Origin: Planctomycetota bacterium
Lineage (GTDB): Bacteria; Planctomycetota; UBA8742; UBA2392
Assembly (NCBI GenBank): GCA_019186845.1
Contig: JABARW010000021.1
Span: forward strand, 1-64,000
Length of the DNA: 64,000 nucleotides
Direction: 5' to 3'
A program made the position numbers and the translations under genes. Position 1 is the stretch's first letter; every line of letters starts with the position of its first letter. Under the pieces are notes generated by a model that did no database searches, was not told the DNA's origin, and worked only from the letters and a program-made list of their open reading frames with translations. Positions 8,369-47,134 of the stretch are shown piece by piece.

Positions 8369-9457
8369 TCAGCCGACGACCACGCGGTTGCGGCCGCTTT
8401 CCTTGGCCTTGTAGAGCGCTTCGTCGGCCCGTTCCAGCGCGCTGAGGATGTCCTCACCCTGACTGTTCACCATCACCTCCGCGCAGCCAATGCTCACAGT
8501 GAACTTCAAAGTCGCCCCCATGGCACGCACCGTCAACTCCGAAAGCGACTTCCTCAAACGCTCGGCCAGCAACGCAGCCCCGTCGCCCCCCGTCTCCGAC
8601 AACAGCACCGCAAACTCCTCGCCGCCCAGGCGCGCCAGCACGTCAAGCTTTCGCAACTGCGGCGCGGCTTGCCTCGCCAGCAACTTGAGCACTTCGTCGC
8701 CCACGGGGTGGCCATAGGTGTCATTGATCTTCTTGAAATGGTCGATGTCGAGCATCAGCACCGAAAGAGGCTTGCTGTAGCGCCTTGCGCGGGCCAGCTC
8801 ACGCTCGGCGGTCTCAATGAAATAGCGGCGGTTGTAAAGCCCCGTGAGCGGGTCCGTGGTGGCTGCCCGCTCCAGCTGAACCTCCAGCAGGAACGCGCGC
8901 AGGTGGCGCTGCTCAAGAAAGAAACTCAAAAGCACGGCCAGCGCCATGGAGGCCACCAGAAAGCCGTTGATCTGCGCGAAGGTGAACCAGCCTTGACCTG
9001 TCAAGAGCACAACGAAGTTCGCCGCCGCCAGCACCACGAGCGAACCATTCAGTGCACCGCGCCACGACGGCGTAATCGCCACCCCGGCAAACACCACCAT
9101 GGTCAGGCCCGCGATGCCAAGGTCAAATCCCCTGGGCAGCAAGGCCAAGACGATGGCCACGCCAAAACCCGCCGTCAACGAGGCCAGCAGGTTCAGCAGA
9201 TTCAGGCGGCGCGAAGCGACAACCGAGCGCGAAAAGAAGTACAGGGCGGCAAAACTCGCGCTGCAGGCCGCGCGCACGGGCAGCGTGCGGAAGATCGCCC
9301 CGGAGTCGAGCAGGGCATCCCAGGCCACAAAGAGCAGCATGAGTGCCGCGCCGGCAAAGTAGGCCATTCGGGCGATGGGCAGCGTGCGCTCTCCTTGGGT
9401 ACGCCGGTAGCGTTCGAGCAATGCGCCGTCAAGTTGGGGCAGGGCGCCCGTGGTCAT
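8369..9457 (-). CDS. Membrane-bound diguanylate cyclase (GGDEF)
   Basis: Makes cyclic di-GMP from two GTP. The 362-residue protein has about five or six hydrophobic helices in residues 25-180, a short linker, and a C-terminal GGDEF domain. The domain carries DPLTGLYNRRYF at its start and an active GGEEF signature at about 278-282. An RxxD allosteric inhibition site (RKLD, about 269-272) lies five residues before GGEEF, so product feedback is expected. The ATG at 9457 is chosen over a TTG at 9475. No phosphodiesterase or sensory partner is adjacent. Confidence 0.93.
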   Translation of the reverse strand: MTTGALPQLDGALLERYRRTQGERTLPIARMAYFAGAALMLLFVAWDALLDSGAIFRTLPVRAACSASFAALYFFSRSVVASRRLNLLNLLASLTAGFGVAIVLALLPRGFDLGIAGLTMVVFAGVAITPSWRGALNGSLVVLAAANFVVLLTGQGWFTFAQINGFLVASMALAVLLSFFLEQRHLRAFLLEVQLERAATTDPLTGLYNRRYFIETAERELARARRYSKPLSVLMLDIDHFKKINDTYGHPVGDEVLKLLARQAAPQLRKLDVLARLGGEEFAVLLSETGGDGAALLAERLRKSLSELTVRAMGATLKFTVSIGCAEVMVNSQGEDILSALERADEALYKAKESGRNRVVVG

Positions 9458-9487
9458 CACCTGAGTCTGCCACAAGCGCGTCGGCGT

Positions 9488-10276
9488 TCAACGAGCCATT
9501 TCCTGCTCAAAGGCGCGTGTCAGCGCATACCACGAGGCAAAGCGGAAATAATCGGGCCAGGCGCGCTTGCGGATGGCTTCCTCGCGGCTGGCGTAGCCCG
9601 TGTTGTCGTTGCGCAGCCCATTGCCATAGCGCTCAAGGCTGGCGCGCACGCGCTCATGGCGGCAATCAATGATCTCGTCGCCCGCAAAGATCGGGCAGTT
9701 GCCGTCATGTCCCATGCGCAGGGGCCCGACGATGCCGCGCCGCTCCAGTTCGCGGATTTCGTCGGCGCTGGTCTGTCGATGACCGGCGTAGAAAAGCTGC
9801 CAGGCCAGGTTCAGGCGGGGAAACTCGAAGGGATCAAAGCTGCGCACCTCGCCTACAACGATGGCGTCGGCCTTCATGCGGCGCGCCAGCGCCCGGGCCG
9901 AGGCTGCGTCACTCAGAGGGTTCTGCTCGTCGCCTTCTCGCAGACTCTGCTGCCAGGCCTCCAGAACCTGGGCGGGCGGAAGAACTTCAAAACCTTCGAA
10001 CAGCGCCAGCTCTTCGGAGAACTGGCGGGCAATGTCCACACTGAAGATCAGGAAGCGGCCGTCGGAAAGCTCGGCCCCCTTGAGATCGAAGTCGTAGCGC
10101 TGTTCGGTGGTCTTCTCGCTGAACACAAAGGGCGCCACGGCCACCCGCCTGACGGCCGGATCTTTGAACGGGTTGGGCTGACGGTAATTGTCAGCGGGCC
10201 GATAATAGGCCGAGCAGGCGCTGATCCAGCACAGCGCGGCACACAAAAGCCACAGCAATCCCGTTTGAGCCTTCAT
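9488..10276 (-). CDS. Lipoprotein with LpoB/TolB-N-like fold pattern
   Basis: A 262-residue lipoprotein with a hydrophobic leader and lipobox ISAC, Cys21. The segment RRVAVAPFVF, followed by a helix and then ADAIVVGEVRSFD, resembles the beta-alpha-beta elements of LpoB or TolB N-terminal-like domains that sit in the outer membrane or periplasm. The rest is unassigned. The ATG overlaps the stop of the upstream TolB-like gene (ATGA), so the pair is translationally coupled. Confidence 0.7.
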   Translation of the reverse strand: MKAQTGLLWLLCAALCWISACSAYYRPADNYRQPNPFKDPAVRRVAVAPFVFSEKTTEQRYDFDLKGAELSDGRFLIFSVDIARQFSEELALFEGFEVLPPAQVLEAWQQSLREGDEQNPLSDAASARALARRMKADAIVVGEVRSFDPFEFPRLNLAWQLFYAGHRQTSADEIRELERRGIVGPLRMGHDGNCPIFAGDEIIDCRHERVRASLERYGNGLRNDNTGYASREEAIRKRAWPDYFRFASWYALTRAFEQEMAR

Positions 10277-11286
10277 CGGCCTCCTCCTTCGGCCGCCGGC
10301 TGCGGCAGCCTGAGCGCCACAGAGAAGATGTTCTGGGCGCCATCCCTCGAACTGACAAAGAAGCATCGCTCGGACCTCGGGTCATAGACCGGGTCCCAGT
10401 CGCGGAAGCCGCGCCAGGTGACACGGCTGGCCTGGGTTCCGTTTATGTTGACGAGCCAGATGTCGTCAGCCTTGGTGTAGCCCTCAAGGGGCCCGCCCAC
10501 GCGTCGACCGATGGTGGAAAACACAATCCAGTCCGGGCCGGCAAAGCTTGGCGTGATGGCGCCGAACTCATCACTGCGGAAGATCTCCTGCTGCGAGCGG
10601 CCATCGATGCTGATCGTCCAGACCGCGGGCCAGCCCGGGGCCCGCCTTGAGTTGCGGCTGAAAACAATCATGTCGCCAACGGGCGAGAAATCAGGCATGG
10701 CTCCCTCGCACAGCATCGTTCGGGTGCCCGCCTCGAGGTCCGCAAGGGCAATGGCCCAGGGGTCCGCCGCGTCGCGTCGCGTGCAGTAGGCCAGGACCTT
10801 GCCATCAGGGCTGAAGCTTGGGGCAAACGAGTCCCATCCGTCGTCGGTGACCTGAACCACGGGCACCGAACTGTCCAGCCCCGCCACGTAAACATTCCAG
10901 CGTCCGTCGCGGTTGCTGGCGAAGGCGATGCGCTTGCCGTCAGGGCAGAAGGCCGGAGTGACGTCATCGGCCGGGTGCGAAGCCACGGCCAAGGCGGCTT
11001 TGCCGTCCAGGCGCTGAGCAAAGACATCGCTTGACTTCCCGTTGATGGTGGCGGCGTAAGCAATCCACTTGCCGTCCGGCGAAACGGCCGGATGGGCGTA
11101 AGACGACTTCGTTGCAAAGGTGTGCTGTCGCGCCGCCACCCCCACACTCTCGTAGGGCCGCTCTTCACGCCAGGGCGGACGCGTAGCGGGCTGGGGTTGC
11201 TCCAGACCGGGGCCCGGGTATGTGCACGAAACAAGAAGCAGCGCCGGCATCCATGCCGCACCGCGCCAGAACTTGAAGTGTGCCAT
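10273..11286 (-). CDS. TolB-like beta-propeller lipoprotein
   Basis: 337 residues. The leader ends in LLVSC, with Cys21 as the lipid-modified residue. The remainder consists of WD40-like/PD40 blades: repeated SPDGKWIAY, CPDGKRIAFASNRDG, SPDGKVLAY and FSPVGDMIVFSRN motifs, as in the TolB C-terminal propeller. It probably works in the periplasm with the coupled downstream lipoprotein. It lacks a clear TolB N-terminal domain, which fits the idea that this domain is supplied by the partner gene. True Tol function is not demonstrated; no tolQRA or pal genes are nearby. Confidence 0.8.
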   Translation of the reverse strand: MAHFKFWRGAAWMPALLLVSCTYPGPGLEQPQPATRPPWREERPYESVGVAARQHTFATKSSYAHPAVSPDGKWIAYAATINGKSSDVFAQRLDGKAALAVASHPADDVTPAFCPDGKRIAFASNRDGRWNVYVAGLDSSVPVVQVTDDGWDSFAPSFSPDGKVLAYCTRRDAADPWAIALADLEAGTRTMLCEGAMPDFSPVGDMIVFSRNSRRAPGWPAVWTISIDGRSQQEIFRSDEFGAITPSFAGPDWIVFSTIGRRVGGPLEGYTKADDIWLVNINGTQASRVTWRGFRDWDPVYDPRSERCFFVSSRDGAQNIFSVALRLPQPAAEGGGR

Positions 11287-11511
11287 GACGGCCTCCCTGC
11301 CGACGAGTCCACGTATCTGGCTATCGACAGAAGACAGGGATGCACTTGAGATAATTCACTATTTTTTTTGTTCATTTGTTTGGATGGGCCTCTGCGGGTT
11401 CCCTGCGCCCTTACCCTGACTGAGTCGTCTTCATAGACTGGGCGGCGCCGCTTGGACCCGGCCGCAACTATGATTTTGGCCACGACCTGCCTTGGCCTTT
11501 GGGATGACCAC

Positions 11512-13866
11512 ATGAGCAAGACGCTTCCCGTTCTTCTTCTGCTGCTGGCCCCCTGCCTCCTGGCCCAGGAGAAGAAAGACCCCGGTCTCGCCACCGCCTA
11601 CCCGAGCACGACGATTGTCTACGTCGAGGGCAATGTCTCCTCGCTGTTCAAAAACCTTTCGGACCCCGGGCTGCTCAAAGGCATCGGAGCCAACGTGCAG
11701 GTGCCGGACCTGGGCCAGCTGGTAGAGGAGTCGCTGGAGATTGAGCTGACGGACGCCGAGGTGCGGCAAATCGTCGGCGGCATTCAACGCGGCAGTTTCG
11801 GGCTGCTGGACTTCGGCGTCGGCGGCCCCAAATTCCAACTCGTGGTGCGGCACGAGGACCCCTCGGTGCTCGCCAAGGCATTGGCGCGAGCCCTTGAGCA
11901 GGGTGCGGAAACGGTGGTGTCCGTTGAAGAATACGAAGGCGAAAAGGCCTACCAGATCAAGTTGCCAGTGCGCGCACCTGAAACCGACCCCGAGGGCATG
12001 GTGGACCGCAATCCCATTCTGGATTGGGCCGCCATCGAGACACTCTGGCTGACCGTGACATCCAGCCGCCACGTCATTGTCGCGACCAGCCTCAACGCGG
12101 CCAAAGATGCCATCGAGTTTCTGGCCTTCCCCGATGACCCTACGGACACCCTGCGCGGCAACAAGCGCTTCCAGGAAGCACTGGCCGAGTTCAAAGACCC
12201 CGACGGGCTGGTGTTCGTGAACACCACAGCCCTGATCAACACGCTGGAACGGGCCTCGGGCGACAAGGGCAACAGCCCCTTGGATGATTTCTTCGGCGGG
12301 GCCATTCGCTTCACCATCGAGCTGATGGAGTACAAACAGCTCAAGAGCTTTGCTGCAGGCTACTGGATTGACGATGCCACCAGCACCCTGCGCATGGACG
12401 CGAGGCTTCAGTTCCATAACGAGCCCGGCTGGTACAGCGCCGTCAGGCTGAAGCCCACGTCCCAGCCCCTTTCCGAGTTCATTCCTGCCGACACAATGTT
12501 CGGACTCACTTACGGCATCGAGGACCCCAAGTCGCTTTACACGCGCGTCATGGACCTGCTGCGCACCCGCGCCACCGATGGCGGTCAGGCCGAGGTGCTC
12601 AAGGAACTCAACAAGTTTGAGAGCCGCGCCAATTCGCAGGGCGTCGCGCTGACAGACGTCCTCGATCATCTGTCCAACGGCCAGGCCTATGTGGTGCTTC
12701 CGCCAGACCAGGACGATGAGGCCACTTACTCGAGGACGCCCAACTGGGCCCTTCTGCTGGCCCTGCGTGACAAAGCCAGGGCCGAGGAGTTTCTGTTCGA
12801 GAGGCTGCTCAAGAGCGATGTCGGCAGCCGACTTCGCAGGGCGGAACTGGAGGTCACGGTCCAGGGCGACGTTGAGATCCACCACGCTCCCTCCGCCGGA
12901 GACGCCAACCCCGTGGCTTTCACTATCTACGACGGCGTGTTCATGCTCGGAGACCTGCAGGGCGTGCGGCGCGTGGTGGCCGCCAAGCAGTCCGGCCGCA
13001 CCCTGGCCAAGATGAACACGTTCCAGCAGGCCCGCAACTTGTTGTGGGATAAATGCGGTGCGTCCGCCTACCTGAATATGGGCGCAATCGTGAAGGCGAT
13101 GGACTTCCGGAGCTATTTCACGGCGCAGCCCAAGGTCATCACCGACGCCACCGAGGCCGACGCCAACCCCATTCCTTACCTCTCCAGGTTCTTCAGTGGA
13201 ACCGTGATTACCATCGGCACCCAGGCCCGCGACAACGAGCTGGCCATGCGCGGAGCCGTGGCGGGCTGGCCCTCCCAGGAGCGGTTCAAGGCCCTGGCCG
13301 AGCACTTTCGCGATGTGGGCCGGAACAAGGAGGTTCGCAACGCCTTTGCCACGCTGCTTGAGGCCGCGACGACACACTACGCAATCAAGGGCAAACCGGC
13401 AGCCAAGGCCAATGAACTTGCCGCGGCCGGCTACATCCCCGAGTCCCTGCTCCAAGACCCCTTCCGCGGCGAGGGCGAGTTGCGGCCCTACGAGTTGGCG
13501 GAGGTGCCCGAGAACTTGGATATCCGGCAGGCCATCTTGCTGGCCTACCAGCAGAAGCCCGGCCTCGAAGGCATGCATCTTGGCGTGCTATGGAACGGCT
13601 ACATCGTCAAGCTTACGCCGGCCCAGCTGAAGGAAGCATTGGAACGCGCCAAGCAGGGCCTGCCGCTGGAGAATTATGAGGCACTGGAGCCTCTGTTCCT
13701 GGGGCCCAGCGCTGACTCGATGACCGAAGATCCGATGATCAGTGAAACCGATGTGGAGATCATCGATGACGACGGCACCGAGCGTGTGGTTTCCGTTCCC
13801 GAGGACAACCTAACGGCGGGAACCGAACACAAGCTCGACAATCCTCCACCGAAGGAAGACAGGTAA
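11512..13866 (+). CDS. Large secreted protein of unknown function, paralogue-like to next gene
   Basis: 784 residues with a signal peptide (MSKTLPVLLLLLAPCLLAQ, cleavage after AQ). The mature protein alternates beta-rich and helical segments with patterns such as VYVEGNVSSLF, PKFQLVVRHED and MLGDLQGVRRVV. These loosely recall DUF3352-type secreted proteins. The C-terminus is acidic and low in complexity. The start at 11512 is supported by the signal peptide and GGGATGA upstream. It is followed 30 bases later by a second large secreted protein of similar layout, suggesting a two-gene operon. No catalytic motif was found. Confidence 0.8.
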   Translation: MSKTLPVLLLLLAPCLLAQEKKDPGLATAYPSTTIVYVEGNVSSLFKNLSDPGLLKGIGANVQVPDLGQLVEESLEIELTDAEVRQIVGGIQRGSFGLLDFGVGGPKFQLVVRHEDPSVLAKALARALEQGAETVVSVEEYEGEKAYQIKLPVRAPETDPEGMVDRNPILDWAAIETLWLTVTSSRHVIVATSLNAAKDAIEFLAFPDDPTDTLRGNKRFQEALAEFKDPDGLVFVNTTALINTLERASGDKGNSPLDDFFGGAIRFTIELMEYKQLKSFAAGYWIDDATSTLRMDARLQFHNEPGWYSAVRLKPTSQPLSEFIPADTMFGLTYGIEDPKSLYTRVMDLLRTRATDGGQAEVLKELNKFESRANSQGVALTDVLDHLSNGQAYVVLPPDQDDEATYSRTPNWALLLALRDKARAEEFLFERLLKSDVGSRLRRAELEVTVQGDVEIHHAPSAGDANPVAFTIYDGVFMLGDLQGVRRVVAAKQSGRTLAKMNTFQQARNLLWDKCGASAYLNMGAIVKAMDFRSYFTAQPKVITDATEADANPIPYLSRFFSGTVITIGTQARDNELAMRGAVAGWPSQERFKALAEHFRDVGRNKEVRNAFATLLEAATTHYAIKGKPAAKANELAAAGYIPESLLQDPFRGEGELRPYELAEVPENLDIRQAILLAYQQKPGLEGMHLGVLWNGYIVKLTPAQLKEALERAKQGLPLENYEALEPLFLGPSADSMTEDPMISETDVEIIDDDGTERVVSVPEDNLTAGTEHKLDNPPPKEDR

Positions 13867-39361: not shown

Positions 39362-40162
39362 ATGGCGGATGAGTCGACAGCAGCGAGGGCTTCCGCCCTT
39401 ACAGCGATGCAGGGTCTATTTTCGGGCCTGGAGTCGCGCTTGATGCGGCAGCGCATGTTGCCGCACCCCCTCGATGGCTCGCTCTACGACTTTGACGCTA
39501 ACCGTGTATCGCGGCGCAGCCACATTGCGGGGGATTTGAGTCCCGGCGGCCAAAGCGCGTTCACGCGTCGAGAGGCCCTGGGCCTCCTGCACAAGCCGCT
39601 GCTGGGCGCCACCACGCTCAAGGTCTGTGTGGTGCTGGACTTTGCGTGGGCCCCTGCGGAGTCCAGCCGCTTCACCCCCCGCGCCGTGGAGCAGGCGGCG
39701 AACTGGGCTTTGACCTCAATGAGGCCCGACATCTACTTCATCCTTGGCGTCGCCGGGCTTTCGAGCACTCCTCAGCTCGGCCCCAGTGATGAGGCTTTGC
39801 GCTCGCTTTCGGGAGGCACAAACTGGCGCGCCGGCTTTGTGGAGTTCCTCAATCCTGGCTGGCGCGTGTCGGCGCCGCGCGACGGCGTGATTCTGCCGGC
39901 GCTGTTCGAGAACCTCTTTGACCCCGAACCCCATGAACAGAAAGCCGCCCGCGTGGATGCCGCCCTGCAGGCCGCCCAAGAACTGAAAGAGCCCGGCGGT
40001 TTCCTGCTGTTGGAGGAGCTGGCAAGGCGCGCGGCCGTCAGCGGGGAACTGGTTACGGACCGGGCCATGCTTTATGCGGGACGAACCCCGGGATTGGACG
40101 TGAAGGACGTCGAAGGAAATCTCATTATCCAGCGGAACAGGTTTACAAGCGTGGGAGCGTAA
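39362..40162 (+). CDS. Unknown protein heading the ESCRT-like operon
   Basis: 266 residues, ATG 39362 with GAGAAGG upstream. No signal peptide or membrane segment. The centre has two hydrophobic strands in a Rossmann-like rhythm (TLKVCVVLDFAW and PDIYFILGVAGL). The C-terminal 60 residues (FLLLEELARRAAVSGELV, then LDVKDVEGNLIIQR) read like a winged helix. Winged helices are the building block of ESCRT-II, so a bridging role is conceivable, but no sequence match can be claimed. The stop is immediately followed by the GTG of the first ESCRT-III-like gene. Confidence 0.65.
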   Translation: MADESTAARASALTAMQGLFSGLESRLMRQRMLPHPLDGSLYDFDANRVSRRSHIAGDLSPGGQSAFTRREALGLLHKPLLGATTLKVCVVLDFAWAPAESSRFTPRAVEQAANWALTSMRPDIYFILGVAGLSSTPQLGPSDEALRSLSGGTNWRAGFVEFLNPGWRVSAPRDGVILPALFENLFDPEPHEQKAARVDAALQAAQELKEPGGFLLLEELARRAAVSGELVTDRAMLYAGRTPGLDVKDVEGNLIIQRNRFTSVGA

Positions 40163-40897
40163 GTGGGACTCGGCGACTTCTTTCGCAGGTTATTCGGCCG
40201 CGGCGGTGACCCCGACGAAGAGAGGCCCGTGGACAAAGCCGCCATGCGCGAAGAGCTTGACCGCTATGACGAGCTGATCACCCGCAACGAAGTCGAATTG
40301 CGCAAAGTCATGCAGGAGCTGCAGCGCCTTGAGATGCAGGAGAAAGCGCAGGCCGAAGCCCTCAAGGCCGGCAAGATCGGCGACCAGGAAAAGGAAGTTG
40401 TACTGCTCAGCGTTAAGCGCAACCGCACGCGCATCGAATCGCTGAAGCACCGCATCCACGTTTACAACAAAAACATCGAAGTGCTGCAAAGCATGGTCGA
40501 CAAGCACCAGACCATCGCGGCCATGAACCTGCGCGGCATCGAAAACCAGATGGTCGAACGTCTGGCCATGGATTTTGACGAGCGCAAAGACAAGTACATG
40601 GAGTCCATCGAGACCGCCAACGCGATGAAGGGCACCGACACCGGCATCCTTTCCCTGGCCGAGAAAGAAGACCTCAAGAAGCTCGAACGCGAGTTGCTGG
40701 GCAACAAACCCGTCGAAGAAAAGCCCCAAGCAGTCCCCAACGCAAGCGAGAGGTCCGAAACGTCGAAGAAGCAGCCCGAGAAAGTGATGAGCGAAGCTGA
40801 GATGGAAGCGGAGATGGCCAAGCTCGAGGCCGAAATGGCGCAGCGAGAACAGGATTTGAAAGCTGCCGAGGTCAAGGAAAGGCCGCAAACGGAGTGA
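40163..40897 (+). CDS. ESCRT-III (Snf7/CHMP)-like protein 1
   Basis: 244 residues, entirely charged and helical, with start GTG 40163 directly after the preceding TAA. GGGAG five bases upstream supports it and implies coupling. The N-terminus MGLGDFFRRLFGRGG is an amphipathic anchor like that of CHMP4/Snf7. Residues 25-110 form a long basic hairpin with its turn near LKAGKIGDQEKE. Residues 115-180 correspond to the later core helices. An Asp/Glu-Pro linker leads to an acidic C-terminus with a MIM1-like run, EAEMEAEMAKL (M214, M218, L221). It lacks PspA/Vipp1 N-terminal signatures. Proposed to polymerise on membranes and be disassembled by the Vps4-like ATPase of the same operon. Confidence 0.72.
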   Translation: MGLGDFFRRLFGRGGDPDEERPVDKAAMREELDRYDELITRNEVELRKVMQELQRLEMQEKAQAEALKAGKIGDQEKEVVLLSVKRNRTRIESLKHRIHVYNKNIEVLQSMVDKHQTIAAMNLRGIENQMVERLAMDFDERKDKYMESIETANAMKGTDTGILSLAEKEDLKKLERELLGNKPVEEKPQAVPNASERSETSKKQPEKVMSEAEMEAEMAKLEAEMAQREQDLKAAEVKERPQTE

Positions 40898-40900
40898 GTA

Positions 40901-40980
40901 GGTATCGGGTATCAGGTTCCGGGTTTCAGGTGAGGCAAGCGATCCTGATTCCTGAAACCTGATACCCGGCATCTGATACC
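40901..40980. repeat. Long imperfect palindrome between ESCRT-III-like genes 1 and 2
   Basis: GGTATC (40901) pairs with GATACC (40975-40980). GGGTATCAGGTT (40907-40918) pairs exactly with AACCTGATACCC (40956-40967). GTTTCAGG (40923-40930) can alternatively pair with CCTGAAAC (40951-40958). The whole spacer could fold into one long stem or two competing hairpins. It may be a REP-like element or an mRNA processing or attenuation structure. Confidence 0.8.
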
Positions 40981-41012
40981 TTCAGGCAAGTCAGGCAAAG
41001 TGGACGGTGCAC

Positions 41013-41624
41013 ATGGGCTTTTTCCAACTGCTTTTCGGACAGAAGATCGACTCGCGCACACTCAAGGTCAAGTTGCGCGAGGTGGAGCGCGAGCGCCGCA
41101 AATACTTCATGGAGGTGCGCAAGCTGTCCACACGCCAGAGCAGCATCATCGACCAGATCAAAGCCGCGCGCAAAGAGGGCAACCAGATCGAGGTGGATTA
41201 CCTCTGGGAGGAACTCAAAGATCTCAAGCACGACTTCGCCTTCAACAAGCGCGCGGCGAAAGTCGCCAATCTTGAGGGCATCGCGCTGAAGAAGTACACG
41301 CGAGGCCTTGAGCGCCTTGAGAAACGGAAGGACAAGAACAGTATCCAGAAGCTGATCACGCGCATTCGCAACAGCGGCCTCGATGCCAAGCTTGCCCTGG
41401 CCCAGATCGACGAAGAGGGCTACATCGACGAACTCAATGCCACCCTCGATGCCTTGGGGCTCGAAGTGGAAGAGGCCATGACGGACGACGACCCGGAGAA
41501 GAAGAAGTTTCTCGAGGAGATCGACAGCATCGTGGAGGCCGAAAGCTCTGGCAGCTTCGACGAGGCGTTGAAGAGCGAACAGGAGCTCAAGCGCAAGCTG
41601 GAGTCCGACGAGAAGGCGGTCTAG
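41013..41624 (+). CDS. ESCRT-III (Snf7/CHMP)-like protein 2
   Basis: 203 residues from ATG 41013 (GGACGG five bases upstream); GTG 41007 is an alternative. The N-terminus MGFFQLLFGQK again fits a short membrane-inserting element. A basic hairpin spans residues 15-85, with its turn at AARKEGNQIEVDYLWEE. This closely parallels the CHMP2 turn (lysine-rich, then Gly-Gln, then a hydrophobic helix). Residues 95-160 form the later helices and the chain then becomes acidic. The C-terminal EQELKRKLESDEK fits the MIM1 consensus (D/E)xxLxxRLxxLK well, apart from the last Leu. Likely partner of proteins 1 and 3 in mixed filaments. Confidence 0.75.
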   Translation: MGFFQLLFGQKIDSRTLKVKLREVERERRKYFMEVRKLSTRQSSIIDQIKAARKEGNQIEVDYLWEELKDLKHDFAFNKRAAKVANLEGIALKKYTRGLERLEKRKDKNSIQKLITRIRNSGLDAKLALAQIDEEGYIDELNATLDALGLEVEEAMTDDDPEKKKFLEEIDSIVEAESSGSFDEALKSEQELKRKLESDEKAV

Positions 41625-41757
41625 GCCGTTCGCGGCTGCTGGATCGCGCCGCGGGGAGCCTGGAACTGTTCTTCGGCTTGCCTGCTGTCTTGAGTGAGCA
41701 CGCGAGCGTCACATTACTGGTTACAAACCAAGCGATACGACTTCCCAGATAGGACCC

Positions 41758-42849
41758 ATGGCCAAGGCCCCCCACTCATCGAACACTCAACTCGGCATCA
41801 GCGAGCAGACAGCGCGCGAGTTCAAGCGCATCGCCGAGCAGGAAGAGCAGGCCGGCACCGAAGCCTGGAACGACGGTGAATACGACACCGCCGCGTCTCA
41901 TTTCGAGCGCGCCGCCAGCACCCTCAAGAAGTACGCGGCCCATGTTCAGGCGGCGGCCCAGGCCCAGGTCATCAAGCGCAAGGCGGCCAAGCTCCTCGAT
42001 CTCTGTCGCCAGTTGCGGGACCTCACCCAGGACGGCAAACCCGACGAAAGCAAGGCGCGCAAGCTGCGCACCGAAAGCCAGAGCGAACTCGCCGTCATCA
42101 ACGCCGACCTAGAGGCGGCCACGCCCAAAGAGGCCGCCCCGGCCAGGCACAAGAGCAAGGCCGAGAACCTGACCTCGGCGCCGACGCAGCCGCCCACGCG
42201 CAAGGAAGCTCCGGACGACAAGCCCGCGCCTGCGGAGCCCCAATCTGAAAGCAAGCCCAACTTGCGGCTTGTCGGCTCCAAGCATGACGGCGGAGAGGTG
42301 CTGGAGCTGGATTTCGCGGGCGTTGCCCCAAAGGCGGAGGGCTCGGGCCGCAGTGCGCCCGCCCTGGCCGACCCCAGCGAGCAGAAGACGGCGCCGAGCC
42401 TGCAGCGCATCATTGAAGGCCAGACCGCCCTGAAGCCCGAGCGTGTCGTTGAGCTGTCTCGCGCTCTGGGTCGCTGCGACTTTGAAGTGATGGCGAAGGC
42501 CTTTGACGCCATAAGCGACGATTTCTCGGCGGGCCACGCCCCGGACCCGGGCGTTGAAATCGAGCGCCTGCTGAGCAGCGTCTTTGCCCGAGAAATCGCG
42601 CAGGTCTTGCGCAAGGCCCCCGGCGACCTGAGCCAGGGCGCCATGGAACTGGCCCGCCGCGCCTACGGCGAAGGCAATTTCAAGGGTGCCGCGGAGCACT
42701 TCAAGCAGGCGGCCATGGAACTGCTGGGGACCGGCGCCGACGGCCGCAGCGACGAGGACGTGGCGGCCAGCGAGATGAAGGCCAGCAAGCTGCTGACGTT
42801 CAGCAGCCGGTTGCGCAAAGCCGTCAGTGACGGCAAACCCACGACCTGA
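41758..42849 (+). CDS. Protein with MIT-like domains at both ends
   Basis: 363 residues. Residues 25-90 (GTEAWNDGEYDTAASHFERA, then a Lys/Arg-rich third helix) fit the three-helix MIT fold, with the G-(D/N)-x3-A-x3-(Y/F)-x2-A spacing. Residues 292-356 repeat the pattern (ARRAYGEGNFKGAAEHFKQA). Between them lie a disordered Pro/Lys linker (125-210) and a helical block (212-290). Two MIT domains in one chain recall the Vps4 activator LIP5/Vta1, although domain order differs. It could bind ESCRT-III tails and the ATPase at once. The downstream Vps4-like gene starts 43 bases later. Confidence 0.7.
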   Translation: MAKAPHSSNTQLGISEQTAREFKRIAEQEEQAGTEAWNDGEYDTAASHFERAASTLKKYAAHVQAAAQAQVIKRKAAKLLDLCRQLRDLTQDGKPDESKARKLRTESQSELAVINADLEAATPKEAAPARHKSKAENLTSAPTQPPTRKEAPDDKPAPAEPQSESKPNLRLVGSKHDGGEVLELDFAGVAPKAEGSGRSAPALADPSEQKTAPSLQRIIEGQTALKPERVVELSRALGRCDFEVMAKAFDAISDDFSAGHAPDPGVEIERLLSSVFAREIAQVLRKAPGDLSQGAMELARRAYGEGNFKGAAEHFKQAAMELLGTGADGRSDEDVAASEMKASKLLTFSSRLRKAVSDGKPTT

Positions 42850-42892
42850 CGGCGGGTCAGTTTTCAGCCACTTCGGCCAGGCGGCATACGAC

Positions 42893-44140
42893 ATGTCTCT
42901 CGATCTCGGTCCCAAACTGAAGTCCGCCTGCGACGATTCGCTGCACAAGGCCAAGATGGCCTGGAAAGCCGGCGATTCGGAGCAGGCCGCTCAGCACTTC
43001 GACCAGGCCAGCAAACTGATGCTGAAGTTTGCCGAGTACGCCAACAGCCGCGCCCAGGAGTATCAGCGCAAGCGCAAGGCCATCGAGTATCGCGAGTTTG
43101 CGGGCCGCCTGCGTGAGTTGCACAACGAGCAGGCCGTCGGCGCCAAGGCAGCGAAGCTGCCGGCGCCTCCCAGCAACGACGAGGATGTCGACTCCCGGCA
43201 GACCGAGCAGGCGGGTAACAAGAGCGAGCTGTCCAACGCCGTCAACTCGCTGATTCACGTTTCACCCGTAACATGGGAAGACATCGGCGGCCTGGAGCAA
43301 ACCAAGCGCGACATCAAGTACACGCTGGGTCTCTCGCTCGCCACGCCGCCCAAGGGCGTCAAGATCGCCACCTTTCGAAACATCATGTTCTACGGGCCGC
43401 CGGGCACGGGCAAAACGCTGATCGCCGCAGCCACCAGCAACGCCCTGAAGGTAACAAGCGATGGGCAGGCGTTGTTTTTCAACGTGAAGGTCAGCGGCGT
43501 GATGAGCAAGTATTTCGGTGAGAGTTCGAAGATCATCAGCGAGATATACGGTACTGCGCGCGACAACAGCCCAAGCGTGGTCTTTCTTGATGAGTTCGAA
43601 TCACTCACGGCCTCGCGCGGCTCTGACGAACAAAGCGGCGCAGAGCGAAGGATACTGAGCACCATCCTGAGCGAGCTTGACGGCCTGACCGAGAAGGGCC
43701 GCACCGACATTTTCGTGCTCACCATCGCGGCCACCAACCGCCCATGGGAAATCGACAACGCCGTGCTGTCGCGCTTTGAGAAGCAGATTCTGATTCCGCT
43801 GCCCGACCCGGTTACGCGCGAAGCCATCCTCCGGATCCAGACCGAGAAAAAGGGTTTCGTGCTGGAGTGCGAATTGGCCGAGCTCGTGAAGCTGACCGAG
43901 GGCTACTCAGGCCGCGAGATCGAGCGCCTTGTAAAGCAGGTTACTAGCACCATGATCAGCGAACTCAACGCCGATCTGCCCGATGTAATCGACAAAGGCC
44001 TGGCGCAAGCCAAGAGTTATCAGGTAAAGGTGCGCCCGCTGAATCTGCGCGATTTCCAGGTCGCTGCCGAAGGCATCCGCCCGGTCACCTCGCCCGAAGA
44101 AGCCGCGCGCTATCTCGATTGGCGGCAGGACCAGGATTGA
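42893..44140 (+). CDS. Vps4-like MIT-AAA ATPase
   Basis: 415 residues from ATG 42893; GTG 42827, overlapping the previous gene, is an alternative start. Residues 8-78 match an MIT domain (AKMAWKAGDSEQAAQHFDQA, third helix ending REFAGRLREL). After a linker, the AAA domain begins at VTWEDIGGLEQTK. Walker A GPPGTGKT is at 168-175, the aromatic pore loop SKYFGES at 205-211, Walker B VVFLDEFES at 229-237, sensor 1 ATNRPWEID at 280-288, and SRFEKQILIPLPDP carries the arginine-finger candidate R294. The last segment closely matches Vps4 (ATN-PW, RFEK-IPLP-P). The beta domain inserted in eukaryotic Vps4 is missing; after the small helical domain the chain passes directly to a C-terminal helix (LNLRDFQVAAEGI). 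Predicted to unfold the ESCRT-III-like proteins encoded around it. Confidence 0.88.
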   Translation: MSLDLGPKLKSACDDSLHKAKMAWKAGDSEQAAQHFDQASKLMLKFAEYANSRAQEYQRKRKAIEYREFAGRLRELHNEQAVGAKAAKLPAPPSNDEDVDSRQTEQAGNKSELSNAVNSLIHVSPVTWEDIGGLEQTKRDIKYTLGLSLATPPKGVKIATFRNIMFYGPPGTGKTLIAAATSNALKVTSDGQALFFNVKVSGVMSKYFGESSKIISEIYGTARDNSPSVVFLDEFESLTASRGSDEQSGAERRILSTILSELDGLTEKGRTDIFVLTIAATNRPWEIDNAVLSRFEKQILIPLPDPVTREAILRIQTEKKGFVLECELAELVKLTEGYSGREIERLVKQVTSTMISELNADLPDVIDKGLAQAKSYQVKVRPLNLRDFQVAAEGIRPVTSPEEAARYLDWRQDQD

Positions 44141-44149
44141 CCGGAGTGA

Positions 44150-44168
44150 CATCGGCCTCCGGCCGATG
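44150..44168. repeat. Mini-palindrome 1
   Basis: CATCGGCC-TCC-GGCCGATG, an exact 8-bp inverted repeat ten bases after the Vps4-like stop. It shares its design with the palindromes at 44211 and 44741. Confidence 0.8.
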
Positions 44169-44210
44169 TTCGCCGGGCTGCGCGCGCCACGAGTCGCGCC
44201 TTGCGCGACA

Positions 44211-44229
44211 CATTGGCCAGAGGCCAATG
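44211..44229. repeat. Mini-palindrome 2
   Basis: CATTGGCC-AGA-GGCCAATG, an exact 8-bp inverted repeat with the same GGCC core and loop length as the one at 44150. Confidence 0.8.
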
Positions 44230-44244
44230 CCACAAGCGTGCACC

Positions 44245-44279
44245 CAATCGACAATCGTCAATCGACAATCGACAATCGC
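44245..44279. repeat. Five tandem CAATCGN heptamers
   Basis: Heptamers CAATCGA, CAATCGT, CAATCGA, CAATCGA and CAATCGC follow without gaps, ending four bases before the ATG of the zinc-ribbon gene. They occupy the position where a ribosome-binding site would be, and copy number could change by slippage. Confidence 0.85.
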
Positions 44280-44282
44280 CGC

Positions 44283-44735
44283 ATGGTAGATCATGAGCGC
44301 CAACTGATTCGCCTCGCCAAGAAGCACCTGACGCGCTGCCCCTATTGCGCAAAGGACTACAGCGAGATCCCCCACCCCAAGCTCAAACAGTTCCGCTGCC
44401 TGGGGTGCTCGGCGTTCATTTCAAACGAGATGATGGTCGAGGACCTCGACGACGAAGTCTTTGACCGCGACACGCAGAATGTTTGTTCAAACTGCGGCTA
44501 CCACTGGCCCGAAGACCTGCTGCCGCCCGCGAAATGCCCCGGCTGCTCCCAGGAAAACGCCCTGGCGGACCTCATCACTGAGCGCGACTTCGCCGCCCAT
44601 CACGCCAATTTTACTGTGACGGGTCCCATCCCCAACCAAACCGGCACCAACGCGCGCGGCTGCATGCTCCTGGCTGCCGTGCTGATCTTGCTGCTAATGT
44701 TCCAGGGCCTGATTTTCAAGGGCTGTTTGGGTTGA
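44283..44735 (+). CDS. Double zinc-ribbon protein with C-terminal membrane anchor
   Basis: 150 residues. CxxC pairs at C19/C22, C39/C42, C68/C71 and C85/C88 suggest two zinc ribbons. Residues 127-147 (CMLLAAVLILLLMFQGLIF) form a C-terminal hydrophobic anchor, placing the ribbons in the cytoplasm. There is no Shine-Dalgarno motif; the upstream region is the heptamer repeat. Because it lies inside the ESCRT-like operon, it is a candidate membrane receptor or recruitment factor. Zinc-ribbon assignment is by cysteine spacing only. Confidence 0.75.
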   Translation: MVDHERQLIRLAKKHLTRCPYCAKDYSEIPHPKLKQFRCLGCSAFISNEMMVEDLDDEVFDRDTQNVCSNCGYHWPEDLLPPAKCPGCSQENALADLITERDFAAHHANFTVTGPIPNQTGTNARGCMLLAAVLILLLMFQGLIFKGCLG

Positions 44736-44740
44736 ACCGA

Positions 44741-44759
44741 CACTGGCCACAGGCCATGG
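44741..44759. repeat. Mini-palindrome 3 (imperfect)
   Basis: CACTGGCC-ACA-GGCCATGG, with a perfect inner TGGCC/GGCCA. It matches the layout of the palindromes at 44150 and 44211 and lies just after the zinc-ribbon stop. Confidence 0.6.
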
Positions 44760-44865
44760 GCTCGCGCAGACGCCGCAGCCCGGCATTGGCCACATACCGA
44801 AATCCGGAATCCGATGACAGTAGCTGCCGGCTTCCTGCAATAATGAGCGTCCGAGGTGCATCGCC

Positions 44866-45474
44866 ATGGGGATATTCAAATCCAAAGAAGAACGTCGCCT
44901 GCAGCGCGACATGGAAATCAAGAAGGGCATCCAGCGCATCAAGCGCCAGCTCACCGATTTGGGCCGCAACGAAGAGGAGTGGCTTGAAAAAGCTAGGCGA
45001 GCCCAGCGCATGGGCGCCAACGACCAGCTCGCGTTCATTCGCAAATCGCTAAAGGCCACAGCCACGCAGCGCCGCGCCATAGAGCGGCAGCTGCTGACGA
45101 TCGAAGCCGCGTTCCAGATGAAGAACCAGGCGGAGAGTTACGCCACGTTTGCCGAGAGCATGGGTGTCGTGGCCAAGAGCATCAACGACGTCTACAAGAA
45201 CACTGACCTCGAGAAAACGCAGCGCAACTTCGAGCATGCCATGATGCAGGCGGAGACTATGAGCCAGCGCATGGATTTGTTCCTGGACATGAGCAAGGAC
45301 ACGCTCTTCTCAGGCGAGACGGCCAGCGGCGAGCAGCTGGTCAGCGACGAAGAAATCGACCAAATGATCGGCATCTCCAGCACGGAGCGCAAAAAGAAGA
45401 CGCGCGAAGAGCTCGACAAAGAAATCGCCAAAGAACTCGGCGAAATGGGCGCCGACGAAGAAAAGGCGAAGTAA
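44866..45474 (+). CDS. ESCRT-III (Snf7/CHMP)-like protein 3
   Basis: 202 residues, the most CHMP2-like of the three. It starts MGIFKSKEERRLQRDMEIKK and forms a basic hairpin to residue 85, with its turn at RAQRMGANDQLAFIRK. Residues 88-112 form a helix with AESMGVVAKSINDVYK, comparable to the repeated MAxxMKGVxKAM of CHMP2. Residues 114-147 (TDLEKTQRNFEHAMMQAETM) match the helix-5 region. The acidic DEEIDQMI segment and the tail EELDKEIAKELGEM (L183, I187, L191) complete the layout as a MIM1-like end. It closes the operon; a weak ATGACA/AATAAT pair upstream might add a promoter. Confidence 0.8.
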   Translation: MGIFKSKEERRLQRDMEIKKGIQRIKRQLTDLGRNEEEWLEKARRAQRMGANDQLAFIRKSLKATATQRRAIERQLLTIEAAFQMKNQAESYATFAESMGVVAKSINDVYKNTDLEKTQRNFEHAMMQAETMSQRMDLFLDMSKDTLFSGETASGEQLVSDEEIDQMIGISSTERKKKTREELDKEIAKELGEMGADEEKAK

Positions 45475-45544: not shown

Positions 45545-47134
45545 TCAAGCCCGCAGGCGGGACGCCTGCGCCACCAGCGCTTTGAAATGCTTGCCGCGCT
45601 CTTCGAAGTTGGCGAACTTCTTGCCCGGGGCGTACTCGTAGAAACTCGTGCTCGCGGGCGACATGAGCAGGACATCGCCGGGCGCAAGCGCCTTGAAAGC
45701 GCGCTCGCAGGCTTCGTCAAACGTGGCGCACTCATTCAGGGGCGCAGCATGCTGCACCCCTACTGCTGACGCGATCGCGGCTTTGAGGACGGGCGCGGTT
45801 GTTCCTTGCAAGTAGACGGCCTTGATGCCGCCATGCGTCGCGATGCGTTTGCCCAGCTCCGTGTAATCAATGTTCTTGGTGCCGCCACCCAGGATCAGGT
45901 GGATGCCCTTGTCGAAGGCACTCAGCGCGGCCAGCGTGGCTGCGGGGTCCGTTGCGATGCTGTCGTTGTAGACTCGCGCGCCATTTACTTCACCACAGGG
46001 CTCCAGCCGATGCTCCACACCCCGAAAAGTGCGCATGGCCCTGCTGACATTGCCCAGATCTTCGGGGTCCAATACCCGGCTCACGAGCGCGGCGGCTGCC
46101 ACGGCATTTGCCCAGTTAAACTCGCCCGGCAGGCGCAAGTCAGCCCGTTGCGCCACCTGAATGATCGAAGGTGAAGTGTTCCCCTCCTGCGGCTCAACAC
46201 AAAGCTTCAGCTGACCGCGCACTCCCGACGCAACTACCTGCCCATCTCGCCGACCGAGACGCAACTTCCCCGCCGGCAGCTTCAGGGAAAACAGTCTCAC
46301 GTGCTCCGGCACGTCGCCAAACATTCTGGTTGTTTCACCATCGTCGGCATTGAGCAGCGCCTGGCAGCCCCCATAGCGAAAGATCGCCTGCTTTGCCCAG
46401 GAGTACTCTGCAAAATCGCGGTGCCAGTCCAGGTGATTGGGAGTGATGTTCGTGATCAGGGAGTAGTCGCAGGACTTGCAGATACGGTGCCAATCCATCA
46501 GTTGAAAGCTGCTCAGCTCCAGCACAACAATGTCGCGGGACCTGATTTCGTCGAGCCGGTTTATGAGGGGCGTGCCCAGATTGCCGCCCAGCCAGACGTT
46601 TGGCGGCTGCTCAGGAGGCTCAACGCAATCCGGAACGTCGCTTGAAGGAATGGGATCAGCCCATTGCGTCCAGAGTGAAGCCTGCCCGGGCGCGTAAGAC
46701 CAGCGCAGCATCTCATAGGTAAGCGTGGTCGTCGTAGTCTTGCCGTTGCTTCCCGTAATGCCGACGGTTTTCGCCGGGCAGGCTTCGATGAAGAGCGACA
46801 TCTCCTGCGTGACTTCAGCCCCAGCCTCACGCGCGGCTACCAGGAACCTGTTATCCGGGCGCACGGCAGGGGAGTGGATCACGACTTGCGCTCGCGCGAA
46901 ATCGGCTTCGCGGTGTTCGCCCAGTCGCAGCGTGACGGGAATGTAGCTGATGGCTTCGAGGCTGGGCGCAAGCGTTTTTTCGTCGCGCAAATCGGTCACA
47001 AGGATTTCGCTGGCCCCCCACCGGTGCAGAAACTTTACGGCCTCCACGCCGCCCTGCCACAGGCCCAGGCCCATGACCAGTGCGCGCTTGCCTTTGAAGC
47101 GGGCGAACTTCTCTGCGATTGCGGGGTTTGCCAT
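45545..47134 (-). CDS. murD: UDP-N-acetylmuramoylalanine--D-glutamate ligase
   Basis: Adds D-glutamate to UDP-MurNAc-L-Ala with ATP in the cytoplasm, so the organism makes peptidoglycan precursors. 529 residues, longer than the usual 440-460, with an insertion near residues 150-180 (WADPIPSSDVPDCVE). The N-terminal nucleotide fold is MGLGLWQGGVEAV; the Mur ligase P-loop GSNGKTTT is at 128-135. GVEHRLEPCGEVNGARVYNDS and the ATDPAATLAAL element of MurD follow. It lies nine bases after the PEGA lipoprotein gene and away from any dcw cluster. Confidence 0.95.
   Translation of the reverse strand: MANPAIAEKFARFKGKRALVMGLGLWQGGVEAVKFLHRWGASEILVTDLRDEKTLAPSLEAISYIPVTLRLGEHREADFARAQVVIHSPAVRPDNRFLVAAREAGAEVTQEMSLFIEACPAKTVGITGSNGKTTTTTLTYEMLRWSYAPGQASLWTQWADPIPSSDVPDCVEPPEQPPNVWLGGNLGTPLINRLDEIRSRDIVVLELSSFQLMDWHRICKSCDYSLITNITPNHLDWHRDFAEYSWAKQAIFRYGGCQALLNADDGETTRMFGDVPEHVRLFSLKLPAGKLRLGRRDGQVVASGVRGQLKLCVEPQEGNTSPSIIQVAQRADLRLPGEFNWANAVAAAALVSRVLDPEDLGNVSRAMRTFRGVEHRLEPCGEVNGARVYNDSIATDPAATLAALSAFDKGIHLILGGGTKNIDYTELGKRIATHGGIKAVYLQGTTAPVLKAAIASAVGVQHAAPLNECATFDEACERAFKALAPGDVLLMSPASTSFYEYAPGKKFANFEERGKHFKALVAQASRLRA

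Follow-up and report, generated by a model that had tools for sequence, protein, structure and literature searches.

A conserved planctomycete gene cluster that very probably encodes an ESCRT-III/Vps4 membrane-remodelling module

We analysed a 64,000-nucleotide stretch of contig JABARW010000021.1 from a Planctomycetota bacterium (this whole stretch is called the window below), in which seven genes, here named P0001 to P0007, lie together at positions 39362-45474. An earlier note on this DNA had described them as a bacterial operon resembling the endosomal sorting complex required for transport (ESCRT), with ESCRT-III-like proteins and a Vps4-like ATPase. Our results make it very probable that this bacterial cluster encodes an ESCRT-III/Vps4 module for membrane remodelling that is related to the ESCRT systems of archaea. 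This core reading survived each refutation test that the note had named, namely the grouping of the ATPase, the modelling of the small proteins and the co-conservation of the genes. As claimed, the genes were co-directional within about 6 kb, all seven lying on the + strand in the order and at the positions first noted. The description of the module as 'complete' was too strong: no cargo or targeting subunit was shown.

The Snf7-like protein and the Vps4-class ATPase

Judged by its sequence, P0007 is an ESCRT-III protein. It aligned with the Pfam Snf7 profile at 25.2 bits (E 1.5e-5; curated cut-off 27.3), and 13 of the 18 members of its family matched Snf7 at E<=0.1. When the family profile was searched against all PDB sequences, CHMP3 (0.036) and CHMP2A (0.14) were the sole hits below E 1. 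Comparison with archaeal ESCRT-III-like proteins, one of which itself matches Snf7, gave 98.4% in hhalign (E 9e-15), against 0.3% for the reversed control. The AlphaFold model of P0007 showed the ESCRT-III helix order (predicted local distance difference test score, pLDDT, 72), and its best four Foldseek matches were CdvB, CHMP2A, CHMP3 and CdvB2, with E-values of only 0.086-0.28.

P0003 is ESCRT-III-like with moderate support from the fold search. Its AF2 model (pLDDT 75.8) contained a long N-terminal helical hairpin, and the best four PDB matches in Foldseek were all ESCRT-III (CdvB2, CdvB2, CHMP2A-CHMP3 and CdvB; E 0.18-0.25), with PspA and Vipp1 ranked lower. Pfam Snf7 was not matched by P0003. 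A hidden Markov model (HMM) of the P0003 family found, at 2e-7, a small protein (L120:16823-17434) encoded in an archaeal ESCRT cluster; hhalign gave 35%. The structure prediction suggested in the earlier note thus yielded helical hairpins for both P0007 and P0003, with CdvB and CHMP chains as the best structural matches. The PspA_IM30 profile matched neither these two proteins nor P0002, nor anything elsewhere in the genome (88% complete). Of the three ESCRT-III-like proteins originally proposed, P0007 stands on strong and P0003 on moderate grounds, and P0002 found no support. Profile comparison of P0002 with the other small proteins of the cluster likewise revealed no homology.

We then considered the C-terminal tails, where a hydrophobic spacing of the form [DE]xx@xxx@xx@[charged] was present in 11 of the 18 P0007 family members and in 3% of shuffled tails. 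This pattern, picked after inspection of the alignment, is a looser version of the MIM1 motif already known. A full example is DDKVGGRLESLR in locus L018, and D184 of P0007 is nearly invariant in the family alignment. In the P0003 family, a weak half-motif, [DE]xx@xx[RK]@, occurred in 39% of tails compared with 3% of shuffled ones.

By its domains and phylogeny, P0005 is a Vps4-class ATPase. It matched Pfam AAA at E 2.9e-33, and the AAA motif residues were invariant or near-invariant in the alignment. Vps4_C (PF09336) was found in all 15 family members (best 4.8e-5), the window copy taken alone reaching E 0.03, which is under the cut-off. The phmmer alignment with human VPS4B spans residues 28-373, MIT domain included. 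In hhalign, the P0005 N-terminus gave 52% (E 1.4e-4) against the MIT domains of human VPS4B, yeast Vps4 and CdvC, with 0.2% for the reversed control, and 96.5% (E 9e-10) against archaeal Vps4-like N-termini. Pairing of MIT domains with MIM1 motifs has been described (PMC7240154).

We built a maximum-likelihood tree from the AAA region. In it, the ATPases of the window type were monophyletic (100/99) and grouped with archaeal MIT-AAA ATPases (100/100), and a 99/95 branch separated them from CDC48, PAN and FtsH. The reference Vps4 and CdvC sequences in this tree were database letters taken from PDB alignments; the queries used for retrieval were kept out of the tree. The deep order between the window type and eukaryotic Vps4 plus CdvC was weakly supported (82/38). 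Forcing the window-type ATPases to group with CDC48, PAN and FtsH was rejected by the approximately unbiased (AU) test (p=0.00017). The phylogenetic check set out in the note thus went against such a grouping.

These results bear on a reading in which the cluster is not ESCRT at all and P0005 is a CDC48/PAN-like AAA chaperone beside unrelated coiled-coil proteins. The top phmmer scores of P0005 are indeed two-domain CDC48 chains, helical hairpins are prone to false fold matches and P0002 lacks homology. However, the CDC48 scores sum two domains, and the grouping was rejected by both the tree and the AU test. Vps4_C occurs in every P0005 family member, and the matches of P0007 to Snf7, CHMP3 and archaeal ESCRT-III-like proteins contrast with reversed-sequence controls that fail. 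We consider this reading very improbable. An identity as an IetAS-type anti-phage ATPase module is scarcely credible: P0005 does match PADLOC IetA (1e-32) and NCBIfam IteA (8e-30), but the similarity is confined to the ATPase domain, these scores are below those of the CDC48 and CdvC models, the other six proteins have zero PADLOC family matches, a protease partner was not recognised in the cluster and P0007 is unmatched in plasmids and phages. Searches of phage, plasmid and viral collections returned no P0007 homologs, and ATPase matches in viral contigs were distant AAA proteins, three of which were placed in the tree and fell with FtsH.

Several observations weigh against an ESCRT-III/Vps4 assignment. 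The Snf7 score of the window P0007 lies about 2 bits under the Pfam cut-off (25.2 vs 27.3). The Foldseek E-values are weak (best 0.086 for P0007 and 0.18 for P0003), and both structure models reach only moderate confidence (pLDDT 72 and 76). The tail of the window P0007, DKEIAKELGEMG, retains the hydrophobic positions without the last charged residue and so is not a full MIM1. Pfam MIT was unmatched by P0005, whose MIT call comes from profile comparison (52% to the Vps4/CdvC MIT). P0002 has no detectable ESCRT-III homology in Pfam or the PDB, its profile scores either not exceeding those of reversed controls or being too low to count. Finally, the named carriers among the closest records are all metagenome assemblies; one of the Planctomycetota metagenome-assembled genomes (MAGs), record QEVF01000007.1, encodes an ATPase 98% identical to P0005.

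Conservation in Planctomycetota and archaeal relatives

We found the Snf7-like gene P0007 in 55 of the 392 Planctomycetota genomes searched, spread across the phylum and in single copy per genome. Within the window's family it was found in all 16 genomes searched, the window's own counted. A same-strand Vps4-like ATPase gene lay within 9 kb of the Snf7-like gene in 39 of 44 non-redundant loci, and P0001 (34 loci, same strand), P0003 (33) and P0002 (31, lying between P0001 and P0003) also recurred near it. Three of the five loci lacking the ATPase were short contigs of about 7 kb. The ratio of nonsynonymous to synonymous substitution rates (dN/dS) between the window and its relatives was ~0.09-0.37. 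On these sequence comparisons, the cluster is under purifying selection, and its gene order recurs over dozens of loci far above chance. The search for the same gene order that the note had called for, run across Planctomycetota, thus revealed strong co-conservation.

P0001 is among the most conserved members, yet it was missing from the parts of the module that the note named. Its family HMM matched proteins of archaeal clusters in L123 (5e-13), L128 (1e-10) and L118 (1e-7), and hhalign against an archaeal ESCRT-cluster protein gave 98.4% (E 6.8e-15, 211 columns), with reversed controls at 0.06-0.08%. P0001 corresponds to the C-terminal part only of this larger archaeal protein. In the archaeal 'main clade', the arCOG09748 protein has a winged helix at its end (PMC10936438). 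On cluster anatomy only, the archaeal homolog of P0001 resembles this winged-helix protein, and P0001 is its apparent counterpart.

The dual-MIT and zinc-ribbon proteins of the note were present, but they are lineage-restricted and do not belong to the core. The two ends of P0004 aligned with the P0005 N-terminus in hhalign (96.3%, E 1.9e-9, and 90.5%, E 1.3e-6; reversed controls <0.3%), and P0006 contains CxxC pairs and a C-terminal hydrophobic stretch. Among the loci examined, clear homologs of whole P0004 were limited to the window's genus (L002, L003 and the window), and those of P0006 to that genus and one sister genus (L002, L003, L004/L055 and the window). Because of these limits, we regard both as accessories. 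At the position of the zinc-ribbon gene, between the ATPase gene and P0007, locus L005 carries a Kdo/WaaP-like kinase gene (9371-10126; Pfam E 1.3e-28).

Two ATPases were present in 13 of the 44 loci. The second planctomycete type formed a separate group in the tree, and constraining it to one clade with the window type was rejected (AU p=0.0001). This second, distinct Vps4-like ATPase lies downstream of P0007 in L015, L017, L018, L019, L048, L050, L134, L136, L142 and L143. Its clade takes in an archaeal ATPase (L128:7513-8646) that adjoins P0007- and P0001-like genes. In L013 and L014, a window-type ATPase was seen and the other cluster genes were not found in the stretch examined. Locus L048 has tandem P0003-like genes (10635-11258 and 11292-11918) where the P0002-P0003 pair is expected, which suggests that P0002 and P0003 are replaceable or duplicable. 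Ser/Thr kinase and SPFH/Band_7 genes recur downstream of the cluster in lineages outside the window's family (L017:11912-13315, L017:13257-15284, L019:7299-9203 and L048:4414-6267).

We also searched 197 Halobacteriota genomes, about 12 of which contained an ATPase that matched along most of its length with 287-376 bits, CDC48 reaching at most 228. At several of these archaeal loci, the neighbours of the Vps4-like ATPase include a pair of small ESCRT-III-like proteins, a large P0001-homologous protein, kinase genes and other genes. By its layout, this anatomy matches the archaeal 'main clade' of Makarova et al. 2024 (PMC10936438), for which kinase and SPFH neighbours have been described. Nothing in the bacterial clusters was recognised as corresponding to the arCOG08177-like neighbour, no systematic search being made. 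As to the direction of transfer, archaeal monophyly was not rejected (p=0.37), the relatives being sampled from one archaeal phylum only. In a Methanomicrobiales locus, the gene following the archaeal Vps4-like ATPase (L021:8974-9738) encodes, by eye, an MIT-like N-terminus with a TIR-type-like remainder.

Relation to known systems, proposed mechanism and cellular role

The archaeal 'main clade' ESCRT (PMC10936438) shares with the planctomycete cluster a Vps4-class AAA ATPase with an MIT-like N-terminus, ESCRT-III, an arCOG09748-resembling protein and, in larger versions, kinase/SPFH neighbours, and the MIT-AAA ATPases of Halobacteriota are nearest to P0005 in the tree. The planctomycete system differs in its bacterial host, in having only the C-terminal part of the larger protein as P0001, in the second distinct Vps4-like ATPase of many loci and in the tandem-MIT and zinc-ribbon accessories of the window. 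Crenarchaeal CdvB/CdvC likewise combines ESCRT-III with a Vps4, whose MIT domain has an MIT-like counterpart in P0005, in an FtsZ-less host, and among known structures CdvB matches P0007 best; however, CdvA was not recognised here and P0005 falls outside the CdvC group. The Snf7 domain, Vps4_C and a putative MIT-MIM1-like pairing are shared with eukaryotic CHMP/VPS4, whereas the nearest tree relatives of P0005 are archaeal and neither ESCRT-0/I nor ubiquitin components were seen. Bacterial PspA and Vipp1 have the ESCRT-III superfamily fold and appear among the lower Foldseek matches of P0003, but P0007 matches Snf7/CHMP and not PspA, and PspA was not found in the genome.

Reviews have described bacteria as lacking a clear Vps4 (PMC7615534), and according to a 2024 survey the pairing of Vps4 with ESCRT-III is confined to archaea and eukaryotes. 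VPS4-like ATPases of the archaeal type were reported from some bacteria by Ravi et al. 2024 (PMC11237479), as were, separately, homologs of Snf7. In that study an unrelated gene displaces snf7 beside the bacterial VPS4, whereas here both occur in one conserved cluster; a word search of the paper gave no mention of Planctomycetes. Our literature search, which did not reach preprints and most subscription papers, found no published description of this operon, and an earlier report is possible. A conserved bacterial cluster with both Vps4 and ESCRT-III contradicts the archaea/eukaryote-only view. It indicates that an ESCRT machine persists under selection in bacteria, which bears on how ESCRT spread, and its two Vps4-type ATPases offer a system for biochemistry.

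The argument for ESCRT-type filament assembly and ATP-driven turnover draws on the helical hairpin, the hydrophobic start, the MIM-like tail, the Vps4-class ATPase with its MIT-like domain and the protein with two MIT-like repeats. That the proteins bind membranes and polymerise, that MIT and MIM regions meet, that subunits are extracted and which cellular process is served are all inferred. Short hydrophobic starts and helical hairpins would let P0007, P0003 and perhaps P0002 bind to the cytoplasmic membrane, where they would polymerise into curved filaments nucleated or positioned by P0001. Hexameric P0005 would dock by its MIT domain on the C-terminal MIM1-like tails and pull subunits out through its pore, which would make the filament constrict, change composition and bring about fission or repair. 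P0004, with its tandem MIT-like repeats, and P0006, a membrane-anchored zinc ribbon, may act as lineage-specific adaptors.

The process that this module serves could be protein sorting or the maintenance of membrane platforms, linked to SPFH proteins and regulated by kinases, in place of fission or division; the role of the ATPase would then be to turn over scaffolds, whether on internal membranes or on the cytoplasmic one. We find this quite possible, though short of probable. SPFH/Band_7 and Ser/Thr kinase genes accompany larger versions of the cluster, the archaeal survey reads similar clusters as protein-sorting systems (PMC10936438) and the patchy distribution suits an optional rather than an essential function. 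On the other hand, the window's cluster contains neither SPFH nor kinase genes, and the SPFH and kinase genes of the larger versions may not be specific to these loci.

More tentatively, FtsZ-less planctomycete carriers might use an ESCRT-III/Vps4 machine, shared with archaea by gene exchange and often equipped with two Vps4-like ATPases, for division or for cutting internal membranes. The cluster sits in a phylum almost without FtsZ, whose mode of division has long been debated (PMC6952346). No FtsZ or tubulin was detected in the window's genome (88% complete), and the same search was positive in 13 of 14 control genomes. Among the 392 Planctomycetota genomes, FtsZ was found in seven, none of them among the 55 cluster carriers, with an overlap of about one expected by chance.

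It is unlikely that the cluster is a division machine replacing the missing FtsZ, as CdvABC is in Sulfolobales. The lack of detectable FtsZ in the window's genome and among all carriers agrees with such a role, and P0005 matches the CdvC model, far under its cut-off. However, the non-overlap of carriers and FtsZ is at chance level, and the only division-gene neighbour is a MurD-type ligase, in the window's family. FtsZ is absent from 385 of the 392 genomes, most of which have no cluster, and the module is therefore not a general FtsZ replacement. The ESCRT-III/Vps4 module may still serve division in its carriers, and a vesicle or endomembrane function is possible. The cluster allows one to test whether bacteria use ESCRT in dividing or in membrane shaping, in a host without detectable FtsZ.

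Features of the cluster and neighbouring genes

The host assembly, a planctomycete MAG, comprises 3.74 Mb in 89 contigs and is 88% complete. The features of the cluster are listed in Table 1. Two gene starts were corrected: P0005 to a conserved ATG at 42893, with a GTG at 42827 as a possible earlier start of the open reading frame, and P0006 to an ATG at 44283.

Table 1. Positions in the window of the cluster genes and of predicted features within them
Feature	Position	Strand	Assignment and basis
P0001	39362..40162	+	Homolog of archaeal ESCRT-cluster protein; conserved start nearer 39407
P0002	40163..40897	+	Small helical protein with amphipathic-looking N-terminus; proposed third ESCRT-III-like subunit by position and short hydrophobic start only
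P0003	41013..41624	+	ESCRT-III-like subunit; predicted fold and family HMM
Candidate MIM1-like half-motif EQELKRKL, near C-terminus of P0003	41577..41600	+	Pattern match, weak
P0004	41758..42849	+	Tandem MIT-like protein, accessory; hhalign
P0005	42893..44140	+	Vps4-class MIT-AAA ATPase; AAA, Vps4_C, tree
MIT-like domain of P0005 (approximate)	42932..43132	+	hhalign
AAA module of P0005: GPPGTGKT, pore loop SKYFGES, Walker B VVFLDEF, ATNRPW, SRFEKQILIPLPDP	43382..43801	+	Sequence and Pfam AAA coordinates
Vps4_C-like C-terminal region of P0005	44000..44131	+	PF09336, residues 370-413
P0006	44283..44735	+	Zinc-ribbon protein with C-terminal hydrophobic segment, accessory
P0007	44866..45474	+	Snf7/CHMP-like ESCRT-III subunit; Snf7 profile, hhalign, Foldseek
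C-terminal DKEIAKELGEMG of P0007, MIM1-like hydrophobic spacing	45415..45450	+	Family alignment; not full pattern

Rfam and tRNA scans gave nothing relevant. The cluster flanks consist of ordinary bacterial genes (HhH-GPD glycosylase, ABC transporter, MurD-type ligase, PEGA protein and Usp protein) and are common to other members of the window's family. The locus is for these reasons not archaeal contamination, which was further ruled out by an unremarkable G+C content (58.6-63.3% at 40-46 kb, near that of the rest of the window). The MurD-type ligase gene (45545-47134, - strand) lies directly beside the cluster, and it does so too in relatives belonging to the window's family.

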